Assembly: GCA_021324615.1 (NCBI GenBank)
Contig: JAJPIT010000031.1
Location: 1-64,000 of the forward strand
Length of the DNA stretch: 64,000 nt
Origin: Terriglobia bacterium
Lineage (GTDB): Bacteria > Acidobacteriota > Terriglobia > Bryobacterales > Bryobacteraceae
Direction of reading: 5' to 3'
The notes beneath the pieces were generated by a model. The model had not been told where the DNA came from. It saw only the letters and a program-made list of their open reading frames with translations, and did no database searches. How positions within the stretch are numbered: position 1 is the stretch's first letter; every line of letters starts with the position of its first letter. A program made the translations under genes and the position numbers. Below, piece by piece: positions 12,852-23,828 of the stretch.

Positions 12852-12928
12852 CAACCAAAAGGGTCGATGGGGGGTTGGTCTTCAACTTGCTCTCGTCCTG
12901 GATGGGTTTGTGTCTCGCGGCTAAGACC

Positions 12929-15900
12929 ATGAGGGAGTTGAAGCAGCAACTCGTCAGCGCCCTGGCGGTGATTCTCACCGTGGCGGCGGTGATTGCGGCG
13001 GGACTGAACTTTCAACAGCAGAGCCGGGTTCACCTGACCGACGACGGCGTGAGCTGGGTGGACCGCCCCGCCCCGGACGGCCAAAGCACCCGCGTGGTCG
13101 CCGTGCACGTCGCCCCGGGCAGCCCCGGAGAAAAAGCCGGCATTCATCCGGGAGACGTTCTGGTTTCCATCGAAGGAGTGAAGATCGAGCACGCCTCCGA
13201 CGCCACCGAAGTGCTGACCCGGCTGGGAGCCTGGCAAAAGGCCGAATATCAGATCCTGCACGGCGGCGTGCAGGTTCCCGCCAATGTCATCACCGCGGAA
13301 GCCGAGCGGGACTCCACGCTTTTTTACCTTTACGCCGACGGCGCGGTGTATCTGGCCATCGGCCTGTTCGTGTATTTCCGCCGCAGCGGCGCGCCGCGCG
13401 CCTTCCATTTTTTCCTGCTGTGCCTGGCGAGCTTCGTGATGAGCACGTTCCATTACACCGGCAAGCTCAACGCCTTCGACCAGGCGATCTACCTGGGCAA
13501 CGTGGTGGCGGGTTATCTGGCGCCGATGCTGTTTCTGCATTTCTGCTTCGTCTTTCCCGAACCGCAGAAATGGATCCGGCGGCGCGGCGCGGCGCTGCTG
13601 ATCTATCTGCCCGGTCTGGCGCTGCTCGGCGGGCATCTGGGGTTCGCCACCGGCTGGCTCACCACGCAGGCGCCGCTGCTGGAGCTGCGCTGGCTGCTGG
13701 ACCGGGTCTGGATGATCTTCCTGAGCGCCAGCTACGCGTCCGGCGGAATCGTCCTGGCCTTCCAGATGCGGCGCGCCGAAGACCCCATCGTCCGCCGGCA
13801 GCTCACCTGGCTGCGCAACGGCGCGCTCATCGGCATTCTGCCGTTCACGATTCTCTACGTCGTTCCGTACGCGTTCGGAGTCGCGCCGAACCACGCCATG
13901 AACCTGGCGGTTCTTTCTCTTCCGATGATCCCGCTGACGTGGGCCTATGCCATCCTGCGCTACCGGCTCATGGACGTGGACGTGATTTTCCAGCAGGGCT
14001 ACGTGTATACGCTGGCGACACTGGCCGTGCTCGGGATCCTCTACGGAATGATTTTCGCGGCCAAGAGCGCGGGGGATCTGAGCGGCACGGCGATGGTGGC
14101 GATCATCCTCATCGCGGCGTTCGTCTTTCAGCCCATCCGCAACTGGATTCAGGAGCAGCTCGACCGGTATTACTTCTACAGGGACCGCTACGACTACCGG
14201 CGCACGCTGATCGAGTTCGCGCGCGAGCTGGGCTCGCCCACCGATCTGGAGGCGATGCTGGAAAGCGTCGCCGACCGCCTGATCCGCACGCTGAGCATCC
14301 GTCATGTGGCGTTTTTCGTCTGGGATGAAGCAGAGGCGTCGTTCCGGCTGGAGCTGGCCAGCAATCGCCGCGGCCGGCAAACGGAAAATATTCCTTACGG
14401 CCTCGATCTGAGCTTTCTGCGGCCCAGTCCCGGCAAGCCGTACCTGTTCTTTGAGCGCACCCGCCATTCGCTGGACGTGGTCTCGCACGAAATGCCGGCT
14501 TCGGTGCGCCGCTCCATCGCGGAACTGGATCTGACCTACTATCTGCCTTGCTCGGCGCGGGGGCGCACCATCGCCTATCTTGGAGTGAGCCGGACCGAGG
14601 CCGGCGATTTCCTGTCGAGCGACGACGTCGAGCTGCTGGTCACGCTTTCGGGCTATGTCGGCATCGCCATCGACAACGCGATGCTGTACCGCTCGCTCAA
14701 GCACCAGGTCGCCGAATACGAGCGCCTCAAGGAGTTTTCGGAAAATATCGTCGAATCGATCAACGTCGGCATCCTGGCGGCGGACCTGAACGACTGCGTG
14801 GAAAGCTGGAACTCGCAGATCGAAAAGCTCACCGGCATTCCGCGCCAGGAGGCCATCGGGCGGCCGCTGGCCGAGCTTTTCCCGCCGGATCTTTGCCAGC
14901 AACTGGAAGCCGTGCGCGGCGAGCAGGAGATCCACAACATCTACAAATTTGTTCTGAAAAACGCCACGCTCAACATCGCCGTCGCGCCGCTGGTGTCGCG
15001 CGAAGGGCGCCGCATCGGCCGGCTGATTATCTTTGACGACGTCACCGACCGCGCCGAGCTGGAAAAGCGCCTGGTTCAGGCCGACAAGCTCAGTTCCATC
15101 GGCCTGCTGGCGGCGGGCGTGGCGCATGAAGTGAACACGCCGCTGGCGGTCATCTCGACGTATTCGCAGATGCTGGCCAAGCAGATTTCGGGCGACGCCG
15201 ACAAGGCTCCGCTGCTGGAAAAGATCGCGCGGCAGACCTTCCGCGCCAGCGAAATCGTAAACTCCCTGCTCAATTTTTCGCGCACCTCGCCCACCGAGTT
15301 TGTCAGCGTGGACCTGAACAAGGTGATTCGCGAGACGCTCACGCTGCTCGAACATCAACTGGCCAAAGCCGGCCTGGAGGTGAAGACGTCGTTTGAGGAG
15401 ACGCTGCCGCGCATCAAGGGAAATCCCGGAAAATTGCAGCAGGTCTTTCTGAATCTGTTTCTGAACGCCCGCGACGCGATGGAGTCCGGCGGAACGCTGG
15501 CGGTGCGCACGGCGGCCGAAGGCGATCGGGTCCGCGCCAGCGTCGCCGACTCCGGGGCGGGCATCGCTCCGGAAAATCTCGCCCGCATCTTCGATCCGTT
15601 CTTCACCACCAAAGGCGCGCGCAAGGGCACCGGACTGGGCCTTTCGGTCAGCTACGGCATCGTGCGCGAGCACGGAGGCGACATCAAGGTCGAAAGCACG
15701 CTCGGCGCGGGCACGCGATTTGAGCTTTCCTTTCCCCAGGCCGCGCGCAAGGCCGAAGCCGCGCCGGAGCCCGAATCGGCGGCGCAGCCGGGAGAAACCG
15801 CCGCCCCGGCTGCCGCGTCCGTTCCGGTGGTGCACTCTCCGGCTTCCCGCCCGGCTGCCGCTTCCGTTCCGGCCCCCGCATCTGTTCCGGCACCCCTATC

Positions 15901-15958
15901 TCCTTCCTCTCCCGCCTCCGTGCAGGTTCTTGCGCGATCCGACAGAATAGGGAGTTGA
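12929..15958 (+). CDS. Membrane sensor histidine kinase with PDZ, 7TM, GAF and PAS domains
   Basis: A 1009-residue hybrid-input sensor kinase. In order: an N-terminal membrane anchor (about 8-25), a PDZ domain (about 35-100, [20 protein letters not shown]), a multi-helix membrane block (about 115-330), a GAF domain (about 415-580), a PAS domain (about 600-700), a HisKA dimerisation helix with phospho-acceptor His near 732 ([11 protein letters not shown]), and a HATPase domain ([19 protein letters not shown]). A Pro/Ala-rich tail of about 65 residues with repeated ASVPAP units ends the protein. Its TGA overlaps the ATG of the following NtrC-type regulator, so the two form a translationally coupled pair. 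Possible earlier starts exist at 12875 (TTG) and 12902 (ATG). The extracytoplasmic PDZ suggests sensing of envelope peptides; this is inference. Confidence 0.9.
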
Positions 15959-17412
15959 TGGCTGCCGCCGCCGATCTCACTCCGGATGCTCCGGGCCGCC
16001 GCGCCCGCGGGCGAATTCTGGTCATCGACGACGAGCCCGATATCCGCGAAAGTCTGGAAGCGCTGCTTTCCAGCGAAGGCTATCAGGTCGATCTGGCCAG
16101 CAACGCCGCCGAGGGCCACAAGCGGCTGGAACACTCCTCCTACGATCTGGTTCTTCTCGACCTGATGATGCCGGACAAAAGCGGCATGGAGGTGCTCGAG
16201 GAGATCCGCGCCCGCGACGCCGACACTCCGGTCTTCATGATCACCGCTTACGGTTCGGTGGAGGTGGCGGTAGAAGCGCTCAAGCGCGGCGCCAGCGACT
16301 ATTTTTCCAAGCCCTGGGACAACGAAAAACTGCTGATCGAGATCGACCGCATGATCTCGAAACGGCGGCTGGAGCGGGAAAACGTCGAGCTCAAGCGCGC
16401 CTTGAAGCAGCGCTACAGCTTCCCCAACATCGTCGGAAAGAGCGAGCGGATGCTGAAAATTCTCGACCTGGTCGCCCAGGTCGCCGCCAGCCGCGCCACC
16501 ATCCTGATCACCGGCGAAACCGGCACCGGCAAGGAGCTGATCGCCAACGCCATCCACGCGCATTCGGCGCGCGCCGAGCACGCTTTTGTTCCGGTCCACT
16601 CCGGATCGGTGCCGCCGGACCTGCTTGAATCCGCGCTGTTCGGCCACGTCAAGGGAGCCTTCACCGGGGCCGTCGCCGCGCGCAAGGGCTATTTTGAGAT
16701 CGCCAATCACGGCACCATTTTTTTCGATGAAATCGGCACCATCTCGCTGGAGACGCAGACCAAGCTGCTCCGCGTAATCCAGGAGCGGGAGTTTATGCCG
16801 CTGGGCTCGACCGAGACCGTGCGCGTCGACGTCCGCATCGTCGCCGCCACCAACGCCGATCTGAAGCGGCTGGTCGAGGAGGGCAAGTTCCGCGAGGATC
16901 TGTATTACCGGCTGAATGTCATCAACCTGGCGCTGCCGCCTCTGCGCGAGCGCAAGGAGGATATTCCGGCGCTGGTGGAGCACTTTTTCACCAAGTACTG
17001 CCGGGAAAACGAGAAGTTTCTCGATGAGAACGGCCGTTCGCGCCTGAACTTCGAGCCGGAGGCGATGCAGATTCTGATGGATCATCACTGGCCCGGCAAC
17101 GTGCGGGAGCTGGAAAACGTGGTGGAGCGCGCGGTGGTGCTGGCCTCCCAGCCGGTGGTGCCCGTCGATGTGCTGCCCGAGCACCTGCTTGAAGCCAAAG
17201 GCTTACGGATCCGGCGCGATGAAAGCGGCGGCCTCGCCCCCGACGCGTCCCTGTTTGAAATTGTCGCCGAGTTCGAGCGGAAGAAAATTATCGAGCAGTT
17301 GGAGGCCTCCGACTGGAGCCAGACGGCGGCGGCCGAGGCGCTGCACATCCCCTTATCCACGCTGAATCAAAAGATCAAGCGCCTCAACATTGAGATCCGC
17401 AAGAAGTCCTGA
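15958..17412 (+). CDS. NtrC-family sigma-54-dependent response regulator
   Basis: A 484-residue activator with a receiver domain (about 18-135, phospho-acceptor Asp68 in LVLLDLMMP), an AAA+ sigma-54 interaction domain with Walker A GETGTGKE, the GAFTGA loop that contacts sigma-54, and Walker B-like IFFDEIG, and a Fis-type helix-turn-helix at the C-terminus ([25 protein letters not shown]). The ATG overlaps the kinase stop as TGATG, with AGGGAG just upstream, so it should be phosphorylated by that kinase. An alternative TTG start lies one codon earlier. Target promoters would be of the -24/-12 type; I did not find a convincing one in the adjacent intergenic regions. Confidence 0.94.
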
Positions 17413-17466: not shown

Positions 17467-17486
17467 TTTTTCGGAAATCAGAACAA
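17467..17486. promoter_or_regulatory. Second copy of the TTGTTCTGA palindrome (operator candidate)
   Basis: This 20-bp segment matches the perfect palindrome at 18871-18890 at 16 of 20 positions, with the right arm TCAGAACAA identical and the left arm degenerate (TTTTTCGGA). It lies 71 bp upstream of the small gene at 17557, which neighbours the XRE/S24-like regulator, so it may be a weaker binding site for that regulator. Confidence 0.45.
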
Positions 17487-17556
17487 GCTCGCGCGCGACA
17501 CCCCCCTTTGGCATACCAAAAACCGCGGGCGGAGGCGTAAAATAAGGTAAAACAGG

Positions 17557-18027
17557 ATGCCACGATTCAAGCCCAAGGGCGTTCTGGAGCGAAGTGCGTC
17601 CGGGGATCTGTGGAAAAATACACTGTCGCGTATCCCGACGGTGTATGGCCGGCTGGCATACCTGGCGTCGCTGCGCGACCAGAACTCCGGCCTTTACCGG
17701 CATCACGGGCTGAGCACTCTTTTCGGCCGGGAAGAGAGCAGCAAGGCGCTGCGTGAAAGCCATGCCAGCACCTTTCAGGAATGGCTGAATTTATCGCTGG
17801 CGGAGAAGCATGCCGAGCTGATCGCGTATCTGGAAAACCTGGAAGAATCTCCGGCCTTGGTGCTGGAGCATTGGACCCGCGCCGGCTCCTACAAGCAACT
17901 GCTTCCGGATGGTGCGGGGAAGCCGGAAAGCGAGCTGTTTTCGCGGGAACTGGCGGCGCTGGTCGAGGTCCTCAAGGCCGGCTGGAGCGTGGCGGCGTCA
18001 AGCCCAGGGTCATCGCTACGCGGGTAA
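17557..18027 (+). CDS. Small protein of unknown function
   Basis: A 156-residue soluble protein I do not recognise. It is mostly helical, has no signal peptide or membrane segment, and contains the aromatic-rich segment SGLYRHHGLSTLFG and a middle helix LAEKHAELIAYLENLEES. The ATG is preceded by AAGG eight bases upstream. Its last 56 bases overlap the end of the convergent XRE/S24-like regulator gene, and its upstream region carries a near-copy of the palindrome found upstream of that regulator. That arrangement suggests the two genes form one locus, possibly with this gene under the regulator's control; function cannot be inferred from sequence. Confidence 0.75.
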   Translation: MPRFKPKGVLERSASGDLWKNTLSRIPTVYGRLAYLASLRDQNSGLYRHHGLSTLFGREESSKALRESHASTFQEWLNLSLAEKHAELIAYLENLEESPALVLEHWTRAGSYKQLLPDGAGKPESELFSRELAALVEVLKAGWSVAASSPGSSLRG

Positions 18028-18751
18028 TCTGCCCGATGACTTCAATTTCCGACGGGTAGGCGAACACCTCGGGATCCTCCAACGAGGCCGGATGCGGCTG
18101 CACGGTAAGCTGGCCCTCGCGCAGGCTGCACCAGCCCAAGCGGTAGCCTTCGCGGTCCTCCAGAAAATAGATGGGCCGCTCGAATTCAGTGGACCATCCG
18201 CCGGCGGCGATCCGGCGGCGGGTATCGTCGATGACCACCAGCGAACCGGGCGGGATGAGAGGGAACATGGACCAGTCTTCGGTTCCGATCAGGCCGTAGC
18301 GGAAATTCTTTAAATCAAGATGATTCAACAGCATGAGCGGCAGCTTTCCCCACCGCTGGATCAGCCGGCTCAAATAGACGGTGCGCGAAAGATCCAGGCC
18401 CGGGTCGATCGCCAGAGGCACCTGAACTTCGCCTTCATCGGGACGAAAACTCACCAGATGCGTCCGCGCGTGTTGGATGACATCGGCGTCGGCGGGCAGC
18501 TCGGGGAGGGAGACGCCATACCAGGAAAGGACTTCGTTGAAATCCAGGCGGTAGATGGCGCACAACGAGTACAGCCGGAAGACCGAGGGTATGGTCCCCT
18601 TGTTTTCAATATCGGCAAGCCGGCTGAGGGCAACGATGAACTCGTCGTTGTGATGGCGCGCGGCGATCCGTGCGCTCGCCTCCTCGACATCGCGGAACTT
18701 CAGCCGAAGGCGTTCCCTGACTCGCTTGAGTTTTTGGCCAGCATCCTCCAT
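17972..18751 (-). CDS. XRE-type regulator with S24-like C-terminal domain
   Basis: A 259-residue transcription factor. Residues 1-75 form a helix-turn-helix of the Cro/CI type (LKRVRERLRLKFRDVEEASARIAA, followed by EFIVALSRLADIENKG). The C-terminal part resembles the LexA/CI S24 domain: DWSMFPLIPPGSLVVIDD carries the Ser of the catalytic site, and IEVIGQITRVAM matches the closing strand. The Lys that completes the Ser-Lys dyad is not evident; the region reads EGYRLGWCSL, so self-cleavage is doubtful and the domain may only dimerise or bind a ligand. ATG 18751 was chosen because it begins the HTH. A strong promoter and two palindromes lie upstream, consistent with autoregulation. Confidence 0.82.
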   Translation of the reverse strand: MEDAGQKLKRVRERLRLKFRDVEEASARIAARHHNDEFIVALSRLADIENKGTIPSVFRLYSLCAIYRLDFNEVLSWYGVSLPELPADADVIQHARTHLVSFRPDEGEVQVPLAIDPGLDLSRTVYLSRLIQRWGKLPLMLLNHLDLKNFRYGLIGTEDWSMFPLIPPGSLVVIDDTRRRIAAGGWSTEFERPIYFLEDREGYRLGWCSLREGQLTVQPHPASLEDPEVFAYPSEIEVIGQITRVAMTLGLTPPRSSRP

Positions 18752-18792
18752 GATAGAGGGTCGGAACGCATCCTGTGGTGCGCGGGGATGCA

Positions 18793-18815
18793 AAACGTTC
18801 TCTCCGGGAACGTTT
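18793..18815. promoter_or_regulatory. GTTC-N7-GAAC inverted repeat at the regulator's transcription start
   Basis: A perfect 8-bp inverted repeat, AAACGTTC / GAACGTTT with a 7-base spacer, sits immediately downstream of the regulator's -10 box, about where transcription should begin. A protein bound here would block transcription. It shares GTTC...GAAC half-sites with the palindrome at 18871-18890. Confidence 0.5.
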
Positions 18816-18823
18816 ATGAGTCG

Positions 18824-18852
18824 ATTATAGCGGGGCGAAAGATGCCGGATCA
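18824..18852 (-). promoter_or_regulatory. Promoter of the XRE/S24-like regulator
   Basis: Minus strand: TTGATC (18852-18847), 17-base spacer, TATAAT (18829-18824). This is one of the best sigma-70 matches in the window. It gives a leader of about 65 bases before the ATG at 18751, and that leader contains the 18793-18815 inverted repeat. Confidence 0.65.
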
Positions 18853-18870
18853 AGGTACAATTTCGCCGGT

Positions 18871-18890
18871 CTTGTTCTGATTTCAGAACA
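18871..18890. promoter_or_regulatory. Perfect 20-bp palindrome between regulator and pheA
   Basis: TTGTTCTGA and TCAGAACAA form a perfect 9-bp inverted repeat around a TT spacer. It lies 19 bp upstream of the regulator's -35 box and 23 bp upstream of the putative pheA start, so a bound protein could affect either direction. A related site lies at 17467-17486. Confidence 0.6.
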
Positions 18891-18913
18891 AAATTATCCC
18901 TAAGAGGTGATTT

Positions 18914-19774
18914 CTGGATCAAATCGGAAGGTCCGCGAAGCTCTCCGCCCTCCGGGTGGCTTTTCAAGGCGAGCTCGGCGCCTTCAGCCAGCAGGCGGTG
19001 GCCCAACTGGCCGGGCCGCGCGCGAAGCCGGTTGCGAAACAGCGGTTTGAGGACGTCTTCGGCGCGCTTGCCGCGGGGGAGGTGGACGCGGCGGCGCTGC
19101 CGATTGAAAATACGCTGGCCGGTTCGGTGCACGAAAACTACGATCTGCTGCTCAAATACGACTTCGAGATCACCGCGGAGACGAACGTCCGGATCGTGCA
19201 CCATCTGATCGCTCCGCCGGGCGCGAGTTTCTCCTCGATCCGGCGGGTCTTTTCGCATCCGGTGGCGCTCAATCAGTGCCGGGATTTTTTCGCCCGCCAC
19301 CGACGCCTGGAGCGGGTGCCGTTTTACGACACGGCGGGCAGCGTCAAAATGGTGATGGAGGAGAAGCCGGCCGGCGCCGCGGCCATCGCCTCCGAACTGG
19401 CCGCGAAGCTTTATGGCGCGAAAATCCTAAAGCGTGAAATTGAAGACGACCGGCGGAATTTCACGCGGTTTTTCCTGCTGGAAAAATCGGGCGCGGCGCC
19501 GCGCGGCCGCGGCGGGGAGTGGAAGACTTCGCTGGTGTTTTCGACGCGCAACACGCCGGGATCTTTGTTCCGGGCCCTGGGTGCGCTGGCGCTGCGCGAT
19601 CTGAATCTGGCGAAGATCGAATCCCGCCCCCGGCGCGGCAAACCTTGGGAATACATGTTTTATCTGGACGTTCGCGCGCATCGCGACGAGCCGCGAATGA
19701 AGAACGCGCTGTCGCATCTCGGCGAAGTCGCGGATTTTCTGCGGGTGCTGGGCAGTTACCGGGCCGCGCGCTGA
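18914..19774 (+). CDS. pheA: Prephenate dehydratase (PheA)
   Basis: Prephenate dehydratase converts prephenate to phenylpyruvate, the committed step to phenylalanine. The protein has the catalytic domain with FQGELGAFSQQA, AALPIENTLAGSVHENYDLL and the Thr-Arg-Phe signature NFTRFFLLE, followed by a C-terminal ACT domain for phenylalanine feedback (TPGSLFRALGALALRDLNLAKIESRP). It stands alone, without a chorismate mutase domain. The start is uncertain: GTG at 18956 removes part of the first strand and has no ribosome binding site, whereas a CTG at 18914 is preceded by AGAGGTGA and adds fourteen residues; a stop codon lies two codons before it. I prefer the rare CTG. The last 19 bases overlap the convergent exosortase gene. 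Confidence 0.9.
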   Translation: MDQIGRSAKLSALRVAFQGELGAFSQQAVAQLAGPRAKPVAKQRFEDVFGALAAGEVDAAALPIENTLAGSVHENYDLLLKYDFEITAETNVRIVHHLIAPPGASFSSIRRVFSHPVALNQCRDFFARHRRLERVPFYDTAGSVKMVMEEKPAGAAAIASELAAKLYGAKILKREIEDDRRNFTRFFLLEKSGAAPRGRGGEWKTSLVFSTRNTPGSLFRALGALALRDLNLAKIESRPRRGKPWEYMFYLDVRAHRDEPRMKNALSHLGEVADFLRVLGSYRAAR

Positions 19775-20646
19775 AGGCCGATCTTATAAATCCGGTTGAT
19801 CGTGTTGTGGAGGACCAGCAGCATCGCAAACGCCACCAGGAACACGATCCAGCCCTCCAGGGTGTGATAAAAGCCGTGCGCCAGTTCCGGGCTGACCTCG
19901 TCGCTGAGGATGCCCGTGAGGGTCACGCGCGCCGCGTTGGCCAGAATGGCGATCGGAACCACTCCGATCAGCAGCGCCCACCGCATCCACACCTTTTTGT
20001 CGAAAAAGTAAGAGTACACCAGCGCGAGAAACGACAGGCTGAGCAGGCTGCGGATCCCGCTGCAGGCCTCCGCCACCGATAAGGTCTGGCTGGCCAGGTG
20101 CAGCACGTTGCCGTCGCGCAGCACCGGGATGTTGAGCCAGCCCAGCGCCATTTCCGCCACGGAGCTGGCGAACAGTTGCAGCGGAAACGTCACCTGATTA
20201 TAGATCACCGCCGGAATCGGGATCATAAAGGGCAGCAGCAGCAGCGGAAACGACAGGACGCGCACGGCCGCGGTTCCGCCCAGCACCAGCAGCATTCCGG
20301 CCAGCGTAATCAGGATCGAAGTGCGCTGCAAAAACAGCTCCACTCCGAGGATGCCGATCACGCTTTGCAGCACGCCCCACAGCATGACCGCCACTCCCCA
20401 CCAGGCGGGTTTCCACTCCAGGGCGAGAAGTTCGGCGCGGCGCTGCCAGGCGATGTAGCCCGCCACCAGCGGCACCAGAAAACCGTGGCCCACATCCTCG
20501 TCGGTGGCCCACTGATTCACCAGACCCTTCCAGGTCGGGAAGTAAACGATCACCAGCAGCGCGGTAAACCAGCCGATCGCCGCCCAGGGCACGCCGCGAG
20601 ATTCGGCTGACGGCGGATGCTCCGGTAACGACGTGGTAGCCGCCAT
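19756..20646 (-). CDS. Exosortase/archaeosortase-family transpeptidase
   Basis: A 296-residue integral membrane protein with about eight helices. Exosortases recognise C-terminal sorting tags such as PEP-CTERM and process exported proteins during extracellular polysaccharide or glycoprotein assembly. The three conserved catalytic positions are present: Cys195 in EACSGIRSLL, Arg240 in NAARVTLTG and His261 in GFYHTLEGW. There is no fused EpsI domain. It is the third gene of a minus-strand operon with gmd and fcl, only 4 bases after the fcl stop, so its role is probably linked to a fucose-containing surface polymer. No PEP-CTERM-type tag was recognised on the proteins in this window. Confidence 0.88.
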   Translation of the reverse strand: MAATTSLPEHPPSAESRGVPWAAIGWFTALLVIVYFPTWKGLVNQWATDEDVGHGFLVPLVAGYIAWQRRAELLALEWKPAWWGVAVMLWGVLQSVIGILGVELFLQRTSILITLAGMLLVLGGTAAVRVLSFPLLLLPFMIPIPAVIYNQVTFPLQLFASSVAEMALGWLNIPVLRDGNVLHLASQTLSVAEACSGIRSLLSLSFLALVYSYFFDKKVWMRWALLIGVVPIAILANAARVTLTGILSDEVSPELAHGFYHTLEGWIVFLVAFAMLLVLHNTINRIYKIGLQRAAR

Positions 20647-20650
20647 GGCT

Positions 20651-21595
20651 TTATTTGACCACACTTTCCAGCGCCTGCGATTGAAACCACTGATACGTCC
20701 CGGCGATTCCCTGCCGCAGGGGGATGCGGGCCCGCCAGCCGAGGGAGTGAAGCCGCGAAACGTCCAGCAACTTACGAGGCGTGCCGTCAGGCTTGGAGGG
20801 ATCAAAGCGCAGCTCTCCCTGGAAGCCCACGATGGAGGCGACCAGCCCGGCCAGCTCGCGAATCGTGATATCTTCGCCGGCGCCCACGTTGATCATCTGA
20901 GGATCGTCATAGTGGAGCATCAGATGCAGTGCGGCGTCGGCCAGATCGTCGACGTGCAGAAACTCGCGGCGCGGCGAGCCGGTGCCCCAGATCACCACTT
21001 CTTTATCGCCCGCCACCTTCGCTTCGTGAAATTTTCGAATCAGCGCCGGAAGAACGTGCGAAGTCGCCAGATCGAAGTTGTCTTGCGGGCCGTAGAGATT
21101 GGTGGGCATCAGGCAGATGGCGCGAAATCCATACTGCGCGCGGTAGGCCTGCGCCATTTTGATGCCGGCGATCTTGGCGACGGCGTACCATTCATTGGTC
21201 GGCTCCAGCGGGCCGGTGAGAAGAGCGTCCTCGCGGATCGGCTGGGGAGCGAACTTGGGATAGATGCAGGAGGATCCCAGAAACAGAAATTTTTTCACGC
21301 CGGAGAGGCGCGCGGCTTCGATGGTGTTGGTTTGAATCGCCAGGTTATCGTAAATAAATTCGGCCGGGCGGCTGCTGTTGGCGAGAATGCCGCCGACTTT
21401 GGCGGCGGCGAGAAAGACGTACTCCGGCCGCTCGGCGGCGAAGAAGTCGCGCACCGCGCGCCCGTCGCGCAAATCGAGTTGCGAGCGGTCACGCAGGATC
21501 AGGTGGGAATAACCCGCCGCGGCCAGGCGCCGGCAGATGGCCGAGCCGACCAGCCCGCGGTGTCCGGCCACGAAGATCCGCGAATCCCGTTCCAT
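20651..21595 (-). CDS. fcl: GDP-L-fucose synthase
   Basis: This short-chain dehydrogenase epimerises and reduces GDP-4-keto-6-deoxymannose to GDP-L-fucose, using NADPH. The 314-residue product shows the Rossmann motif GHRGLVGSA near the N-terminus, the family-specific [17 protein letters not shown], the [13 protein letters not shown] segment, and the catalytic YAVAKIAG (YxxxK). Its ATG lies 3 bases after the gmd stop codon and its stop lies 4 bases before the exosortase start, so the three genes form a tight operon. Together with gmd it provides a complete route from GDP-mannose to GDP-L-fucose. Confidence 0.95.
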
Positions 21596-22679: not shown

Positions 22680-22706
22680 GCGCGTCCGGATGCGACACTG
22701 AAAATA

Positions 22707-23828
22707 ATGGAGACACGAACGCGGCTTCAGGAAGTTCGCAAAAAGAGGGCGATCGGCGCGGCGCGGCTCGCCGAACTGGCGCAGGTGAGCCGCCAGACGA
22801 TTTATGCGATCGAGGCCGGCGATTATGTGCCCAACACCGCCCTGGCCCTGCAACTGGCGCGCATTCTGGAGGTGAAGGTCGAAGATCTGTTCGAGCTGGA
22901 GCCCGACGCGCCGCCCCCGCCGCGAATCCTGGAGGCGGAGCTGATCGCCCGCGAGGGCCCCCACCGGCCGGGCCAGCCGGTGCAGTTATGCAAGGTGGGG
23001 CGCCGGCTGGTGGGAATTTCCGCGGCGCCGCAGCCGGCCACGCTTCCGCTCGCCGACGGAGTGATCGCGCAGGCGGCGGGCAAGCACGGGCCGGCCAGAA
23101 TCCAGGTGTTTCAGAATGACGCCGTCGAGGCGAATCGTTTGCTCATCGCCGGCTGCGACCCCGGAATGTCGCTGCTGGCGCAGCATCTGGCAAGGTTTGA
23201 CAACATCGATCTGGTGATTGCGCCAGCCTCCAGCCGCCAGGCGCTCGAATGGTTGAAGCGCGGCCTGGTGCACGTCGCTGGCACCCACCTGCGGGACCGC
23301 GACAGCGGCGAATTCAACACTCCCGCGGTCCGCCGCATGTTCCCCAAGGGCGGAGCGAAGATGGTGACGTTTGCGATCTGGGAACAGGGTCTGCTGATGG
23401 CGCCCGGCAACCCGAAGAAGATTCGCCGCGTCGCGGATCTGAAGCGGAACAACGTGCGAATCGTGAACCGGGAAGAGGGCGCGGGCAGCCGCGAACTGCT
23501 CGACGCGGAACTGGCATCGGCCGGAATCGCCGCCGGCGAGGTCGCCGGCTATGAACAGATCGCGCGAGGCCATCTGGCCGCGGCGGCGGCGGTGAGCGCG
23601 GGACAGGCGGATTGCTGCATCGCAACCCGCGCCGCCGCGCGGGCCTTCGGCCTGGACTTTATCCCGCTGTCGAGCGAACGCTATGATCTGGTGATCGCGC
23701 GCGCCTTCGTCAAAACTCCCGCCGTGGGGGCGCTGCTGGATGCGCTGAACCGGGCCTCGCTCAAGCGAAATTTAGAGACGCTCGCCGGTTACGACACCAG
23801 CCGCACCGGCCAGGTGCTGCTGTCCTGA
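22707..23828 (+). CDS. XRE-family regulator with periplasmic-binding-protein-like domain
   Basis: A 373-residue cytosolic regulator. Residues 1-65 are a Cro/CI helix-turn-helix ([23 protein letters not shown]). The rest, from about residue 120, is a type-2 periplasmic-binding-protein-like domain of the PBP_like kind (PF12727 type) found in regulators linked to molybdate and molybdopterin metabolism, with phrases such as [22 protein letters not shown] and [12 protein letters not shown]. No signal peptide is present, so the binding domain works in the cytoplasm as a ligand sensor. The ATG follows GACACT by nine bases. Its divergent neighbour is gmd; whether it controls that operon is unknown. 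Its stop lies 22 bp from the convergent receptor gene. Confidence 0.85.

Follow-up and report, generated by a model that had tools for sequence, protein, structure and literature searches.

The locus considered here raises the question of which protein reads a set of palindromes with GTTC/GAAC half-sites around the gene of a predicted regulator, and what that protein controls. The window (the whole stretch of 64,000 nucleotides that was analysed) belongs to a genome of 3.94 Mb (G000) whose relatives are Bryobacterales, a large soil order of the Acidobacteriota, and it encodes a regulator of 259 aa (17972..18751, minus strand) and, tail to tail with it, a protein of 156 aa (17557..18027, plus strand). 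Upstream of the regulator lies a perfect 20-bp palindrome, TTGTTCTGATTTCAGAACAA (core sequence TGTTCYGANNTCRGAACA), which we predict to be the regulator's operator O1; the original prediction described a real element that is conserved at orthologues, but misplaced it, as it occupies 18872..18891 and not 18871-18890. A related copy had been proposed before the 156-aa gene, and a weaker predicted operator is indeed found there (TTTTTCGGAAATCAGAACAA, 17467..17486; like the other palindromes, assigned to neither strand), with 2 mismatches to the pattern and 0 matches expected by chance in 100 dinucleotide shuffles of the window. When the palindrome search was extended to the whole genome, as had been advised, only one further match was recovered (G000:C113:38404, with 3 mismatches), before a 64-aa AT-hook-like gene. 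A third palindrome had been reported near the regulator's start, and the inverted repeat AAACGTTC-N7-GAACGTTT (GTTC-N7-GAAC, 18793..18815) does exist in the regulator leader, directly after the predicted transcription start. However, we rejected its role as a sibling operator, given that its spacing differs from that of the operator and that only L124, the closest relative (93% identical), shares it; it probably does not serve this regulator as an operator. Folding of the leader RNA is not exceptional (z -0.93), and an Rfam search of it found no element.

We assessed conservation of the operator over regulator orthologues from three surveys: one of 61 close genomes, 34 of which have the regulator; one of GTDB species genomes, which gave 80 loci; and one of 220 genomes of the order, 174 of them with the regulator. 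It occurs in roughly 80% of the Bryobacterales genomes sampled and is rare outside the class. Lack of conserved palindromes near orthologues had been named as the observation that would count against the prediction, yet a site scoring at least 14 of 16 occurs within 300 bp upstream in 60 of 67 Bryobacterales regulator loci, against a null rate of 0.07% in Markov-shuffled sequences. The operator logo is TGTTCYGAWWTCRGAACA, with near-invariant TGTTC/GAACA arms; relatives from the Terriglobales have a degenerate motif or none. Of the orthologues of the 156-aa gene, 33 of 63 have a site scoring at least 13 of 16 in the upstream stretch that was scanned, against a null of about 0.4%, and the TTTTC variant of the upstream half-site found before this gene is itself conserved, in about half of loci. 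Across the 220 genomes, the perfect site is present in 105 of the 174 with the regulator vs 7 of the 46 without it (p = 3.7e-8; here and below, Fisher tests on motif/regulator co-occurrence ignore shared ancestry), and a reversed control pattern was found in one genome only.

The distant site lies on another contig than the window, upstream of a gene whose 64-aa product (MDILKMLADLRQEREHIEEAIMTLERLAQGRGRRRGRPPAWMTAVKRRGRPPGSKNK...) seems by its sequence to form a coiled coil and then to carry two AT-hook-like GRPP motifs. Of the orthologues of this gene, 21 of 22 from genomes with the regulator carry one or two sites vs 1 of 8 from genomes without (p = 3e-5, again ignoring shared ancestry), the single regulator-less exception being in a genome that is 82% complete. 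Of another 20 genomes, 15 have a perfect site 90-160 bp upstream of the gene. The layout of these promoters is strikingly regular: the end of the first operator is exactly 6 bp from the -35 in 20/20 cases, and a second operator follows 82-87 bp after the first (median 86, about 8 turns), which places the pair at about -51 and about +36, the latter inside the transcribed region. The operators therefore flank the promoter. Twin sites 85-86 bp apart also occur at species-specific promoters (G011:C12, G011:C22, G005:C21 and G025:C142), and a PilZ gene is a further species-specific target bearing a site. The 85-bp twin operators of G011:C22 (L205) and G005:C21 (L212) precede members of one small predicted secreted protein family, seen in these two species and without a Pfam match. 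A second AT-hook paralogue in G000 (C113:5013-5156, 63% identical) has no operator match, and paralogues of this kind recur in the genus. At four loci of regulator-less genomes (L105, L108, L109 and L111, from G019, G013, G020 and G018, respectively), the AT-hook promoters carry GGAAACGTTCC or a close form, a palindrome that sits between -35 and -10, as if a different regulator had taken over control.

At the regulator's own promoter, the predicted -35 (TTGATC, 18848..18853, minus strand) has a TTG that orthologues keep at a constant spacing from the operator, and is followed by a predicted -10 (TATAAT, 18824..18829, minus strand). Between the end of the operator and the -10 there are 39-43 bp in 47 loci and 28-30 bp in 8, the two main classes, which differ by one helical turn and the shorter of which matches the AT-hook layout; correspondingly, the operator mostly lies about 6 or about 17 bp from the -35, and relative to the predicted start it is centred around -51 or -62, with -64.5 for the window's own site. 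Twin sites are absent from this promoter, and regulator leaders show no enrichment for a second operator about 86 bp downstream. Spacing in phase with the helix points to contacts of the bound dimers with one another or with RNA polymerase, and is compatible with either sign of regulation. On the far side of the operator, the divergent neighbour in the window is pheA (prephenate dehydratase, 18956..19774, plus strand), which adjoins the operator directly in the window's clade; in 57 of 80 loci the divergent gene is ubiX, placed between operator and pheA, and in most genomes its start codon is 21-26 bp from the operator. We considered pheA as the intended target and rejected it, as it lies at variable distances from the site and in most cases does not adjoin it. 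The original prediction had included neither the promoter geometry, nor the divergent ubiX, nor the target at the AT-hook-like gene elsewhere in the genome.

As for the protein itself, the regulator is an XRE-type helix-turn-helix protein (about residues 1-80) with a C-terminal domain that adopts, in the structural model, the LexA/CI fold. Pfam detects HTH_31 in 54/60 and HTH_19 in 51/60 family members at E<=0.1 (best 3e-6), with the match in the window's own regulator falling below the Pfam cut-off, while PF00717 matches only 5/60 members (best E 0.0028). In the AlphaFold model (pLDDT 80.5, pTM 0.50) the helix-turn-helix is confident and matches DdrO and TP901-1 CI by Foldseek; a sequence search of the PDB gave weak helix-turn-helix matches only (best DdrO, E = 0.26). 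For the modelled C-terminal domain, LexA, CI and UmuD domains rank top in the PDB (Foldseek prob 0.99-1.00), with 2.0 A over 89 alignment columns to LexA 1jhe. The catalytic Ser that had been credited to the regulator proved not to be conserved, as position 161 holds S in 20, T in 18, F in 17 and other residues in 5 of 60 members; the reported lack of a partner Lys stands, with none at positions 205-208 in any of the 60, a correspondence to LexA set by hand alignment because a profile comparison of the regulator with the LexA of its relatives gave no useful alignment. With the Ser not conserved and no Lys at the partner position, we therefore regard the regulator as a LexA/CI-fold pseudo-peptidase. 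Consequently, the proposal of a non-cleaving LexA/CI relative is supported, and the structure prediction suggested as its check has been carried out, by a modelled fold of the expected kind in a family without the Ser-Lys dyad.

Several known systems share some features with the regulator and differ from it in others. With LexA (Peptidase_S24, PF00717) it shares the C-terminal fold, a palindromic operator and likely dimerisation, but it has an XRE-type helix-turn-helix instead of the LexA winged helix, it has no Ser-Lys dyad, its targets are not SOS genes, and a separate true LexA exists in relatives. The CI proteins of lambda, 186 and TP901-1 and the non-canonical LexA of Bacteroidetes are alike in their XRE/Cro-CI type helix-turn-helix, and lambda CI and the Bacteroidetes LexA also in an S24-fold C-terminal domain. 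S24 members among these proteins keep the Ser-Lys dyad and the cleavage site (PMC8565304). Here, in contrast, both catalytic residues are lost, the operator differs, and the regulator is a chromosomal core gene with a 156-aa partner. DdrO of Deinococcus has an XRE helix-turn-helix and a palindromic, autoregulated operator, features matched here (autoregulation as a proposal), although the C-terminal domains are unrelated by the present evidence and no IrrE-type protease partner was seen here.

From the operator conservation, co-occurrence, promoter geometry, fold, dyad loss and partner co-inheritance that we computed, we infer, with good though incomplete confidence, an autoregulating dimeric XRE/LexA-CI-fold factor that has lost its peptidase and governs a narrow core regulon, with a probable loop at the AT-hook promoter. 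The regulator would bind as a dimer to TTGTTCYGANNTCRGAACAA and control its own promoter from a position with its centre at about -61.5 to -64.5 or one turn closer; its core regulon would comprise this promoter, the convergent 156-aa gene with its weak site, the distant AT-hook-like gene and, in genomes that have it there, the divergent ubiX. With its 18-20 bp target at its own, its partner's and the AT-hook genes, the system therefore looks like an undescribed core control circuit; full-text literature searches turned up no previous account of this regulon, and a conserved core regulon in Bryobacterales was apparently not previously described. At the AT-hook promoter, two flanking dimers would most likely be bridged via their CI-like domains into a small repression loop, repression being favoured at this gene because the second operator is inside the transcribed region. 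Lambda CI binds cooperatively and loops DNA, and at gal two GalR operators flank the promoter, upstream of -35 and in the transcribed region, about 114 bp apart. The AT-hook promoter is flanked in the same manner, but GalR is an unrelated protein, the spacing here is 86 bp, and the loop is proposed. Because the Ser-Lys dyad is gone, induction should not use self-cleavage; a signal may act without it, perhaps through the 156-aa protein. In a more tentative extension, which we hold to be rather doubtful, the pseudo-peptidase would act with its 156-aa partner as a switch that responds to a ligand or to the partner and not to DNA damage, and that adjusts the amount of the nucleoid-type AT-hook protein via the fixed 86-bp loop, as a core Bryobacterales-specific circuit of chromosome organisation. 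The regulator would provide a natural example of a LexA/CI fold retained, apparently for assembly on DNA, after protease loss, with a sharply defined operator and few targets, and it offers a testable role for two proteins without family assignment.

The sign of regulation is where an alternative has the most room, since an operator placed at -61.5 next to a good -10 suits an activator as well as a repressor. We give a modest chance to a class I-like activator, which would contact RNA polymerase from -61.5/-51.5 at its own and the AT-hook promoters and would repress the divergent ubiX over its leader. The discrete site-promoter distances, one helical turn apart, the location of the site upstream of the -35 in clear cases, and its closeness to the ubiX start codon would all fit such an activator, but the second AT-hook operator at about +36 and the near-perfect TATAAT at regulator promoters would not, and several regulator-less AT-hook promoters have their other palindrome in the spacer, as a repressor site would be.

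The regulator is the probable reader of the palindrome, but some other factor, such as the sigma-54 response regulator encoded nearby or a further XRE protein, might own the site, with the regulator merely one target. A few genomes do have sites with no regulator detected, in that AT-hook sites are kept in G005, G106, G154 and G215 (71-92% complete) and perfect sites in G152 (98% complete) and G222 (96%). The window does encode a sensor kinase (PDZ, 7TM, GAF and PAS domains) beside a sigma-54 response regulator at 12875-17412. We nevertheless regard another owner as unlikely, as sites vanish where the regulator is lost and the kinase and response regulator share that position beside it in only 1 of 80 related loci (L124), whereas the site itself persists.

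The 156-aa partner has a confident, all-helical model (pLDDT 89) with no fold relatives in the PDB below E 0.5, and no Pfam, NCBIfam or PADLOC family and no convincing PHROG match were found for it. Its reading frame overlaps the 3' end of the regulator's by 56 bp, as first noted, and the suggestion that the two genes form one unit agrees with their inheritance: apart from truncated or diverged cases, the 32 of 61 genomes with the 156-aa family are those with the regulator, 2 genomes have the regulator without it, and the genes are gained and lost together (p = 3e-15, a value inflated by adjacency). The pair is duplicated with both genes kept together in G060, spread apart by an insertion at L129 and L141, and retained on separate contigs in G004. 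The 156-aa protein is the obvious candidate to act as a co-factor or to feed in a signal. A co-inherited two-gene module with operators on both sides, whose smaller protein has no known family, could also be a toxin-antitoxin or defence pair with shared autoregulation; however, we think this very unlikely given the lack of PADLOC and convincing PHROG matches, a tail-to-tail order that is unusual for such pairs, and the near-universal, mostly single-copy presence of the pair at a fixed place in the order.

Finally, while GTTC/GAAC half-sites in a palindromic layout recall the LexA boxes of other phyla, an SOS box is highly improbable, already largely refuted and rejected here, as relatives encode a separate canonical LexA with its Ser-Lys motif intact and the 250 bp in front of lexA contain a GTTC...GAAC site in 0 of the 12 genes examined. 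A PF00717 search of G000 itself gave no canonical LexA and one weaker, different match (C100:30898); the sister genome G010 has a canonical LexA, and its absence from G000 is either an assembly gap or a true loss. Elsewhere in the window, an exosortase EpsH gene (19756-20805) converges on pheA and has two predicted GDP-sugar genes close by, and a gene at about 22700-23828 (plus strand) encodes an N-terminal helix-turn-helix with a C-terminal domain that by eye resembles substrate-binding proteins.
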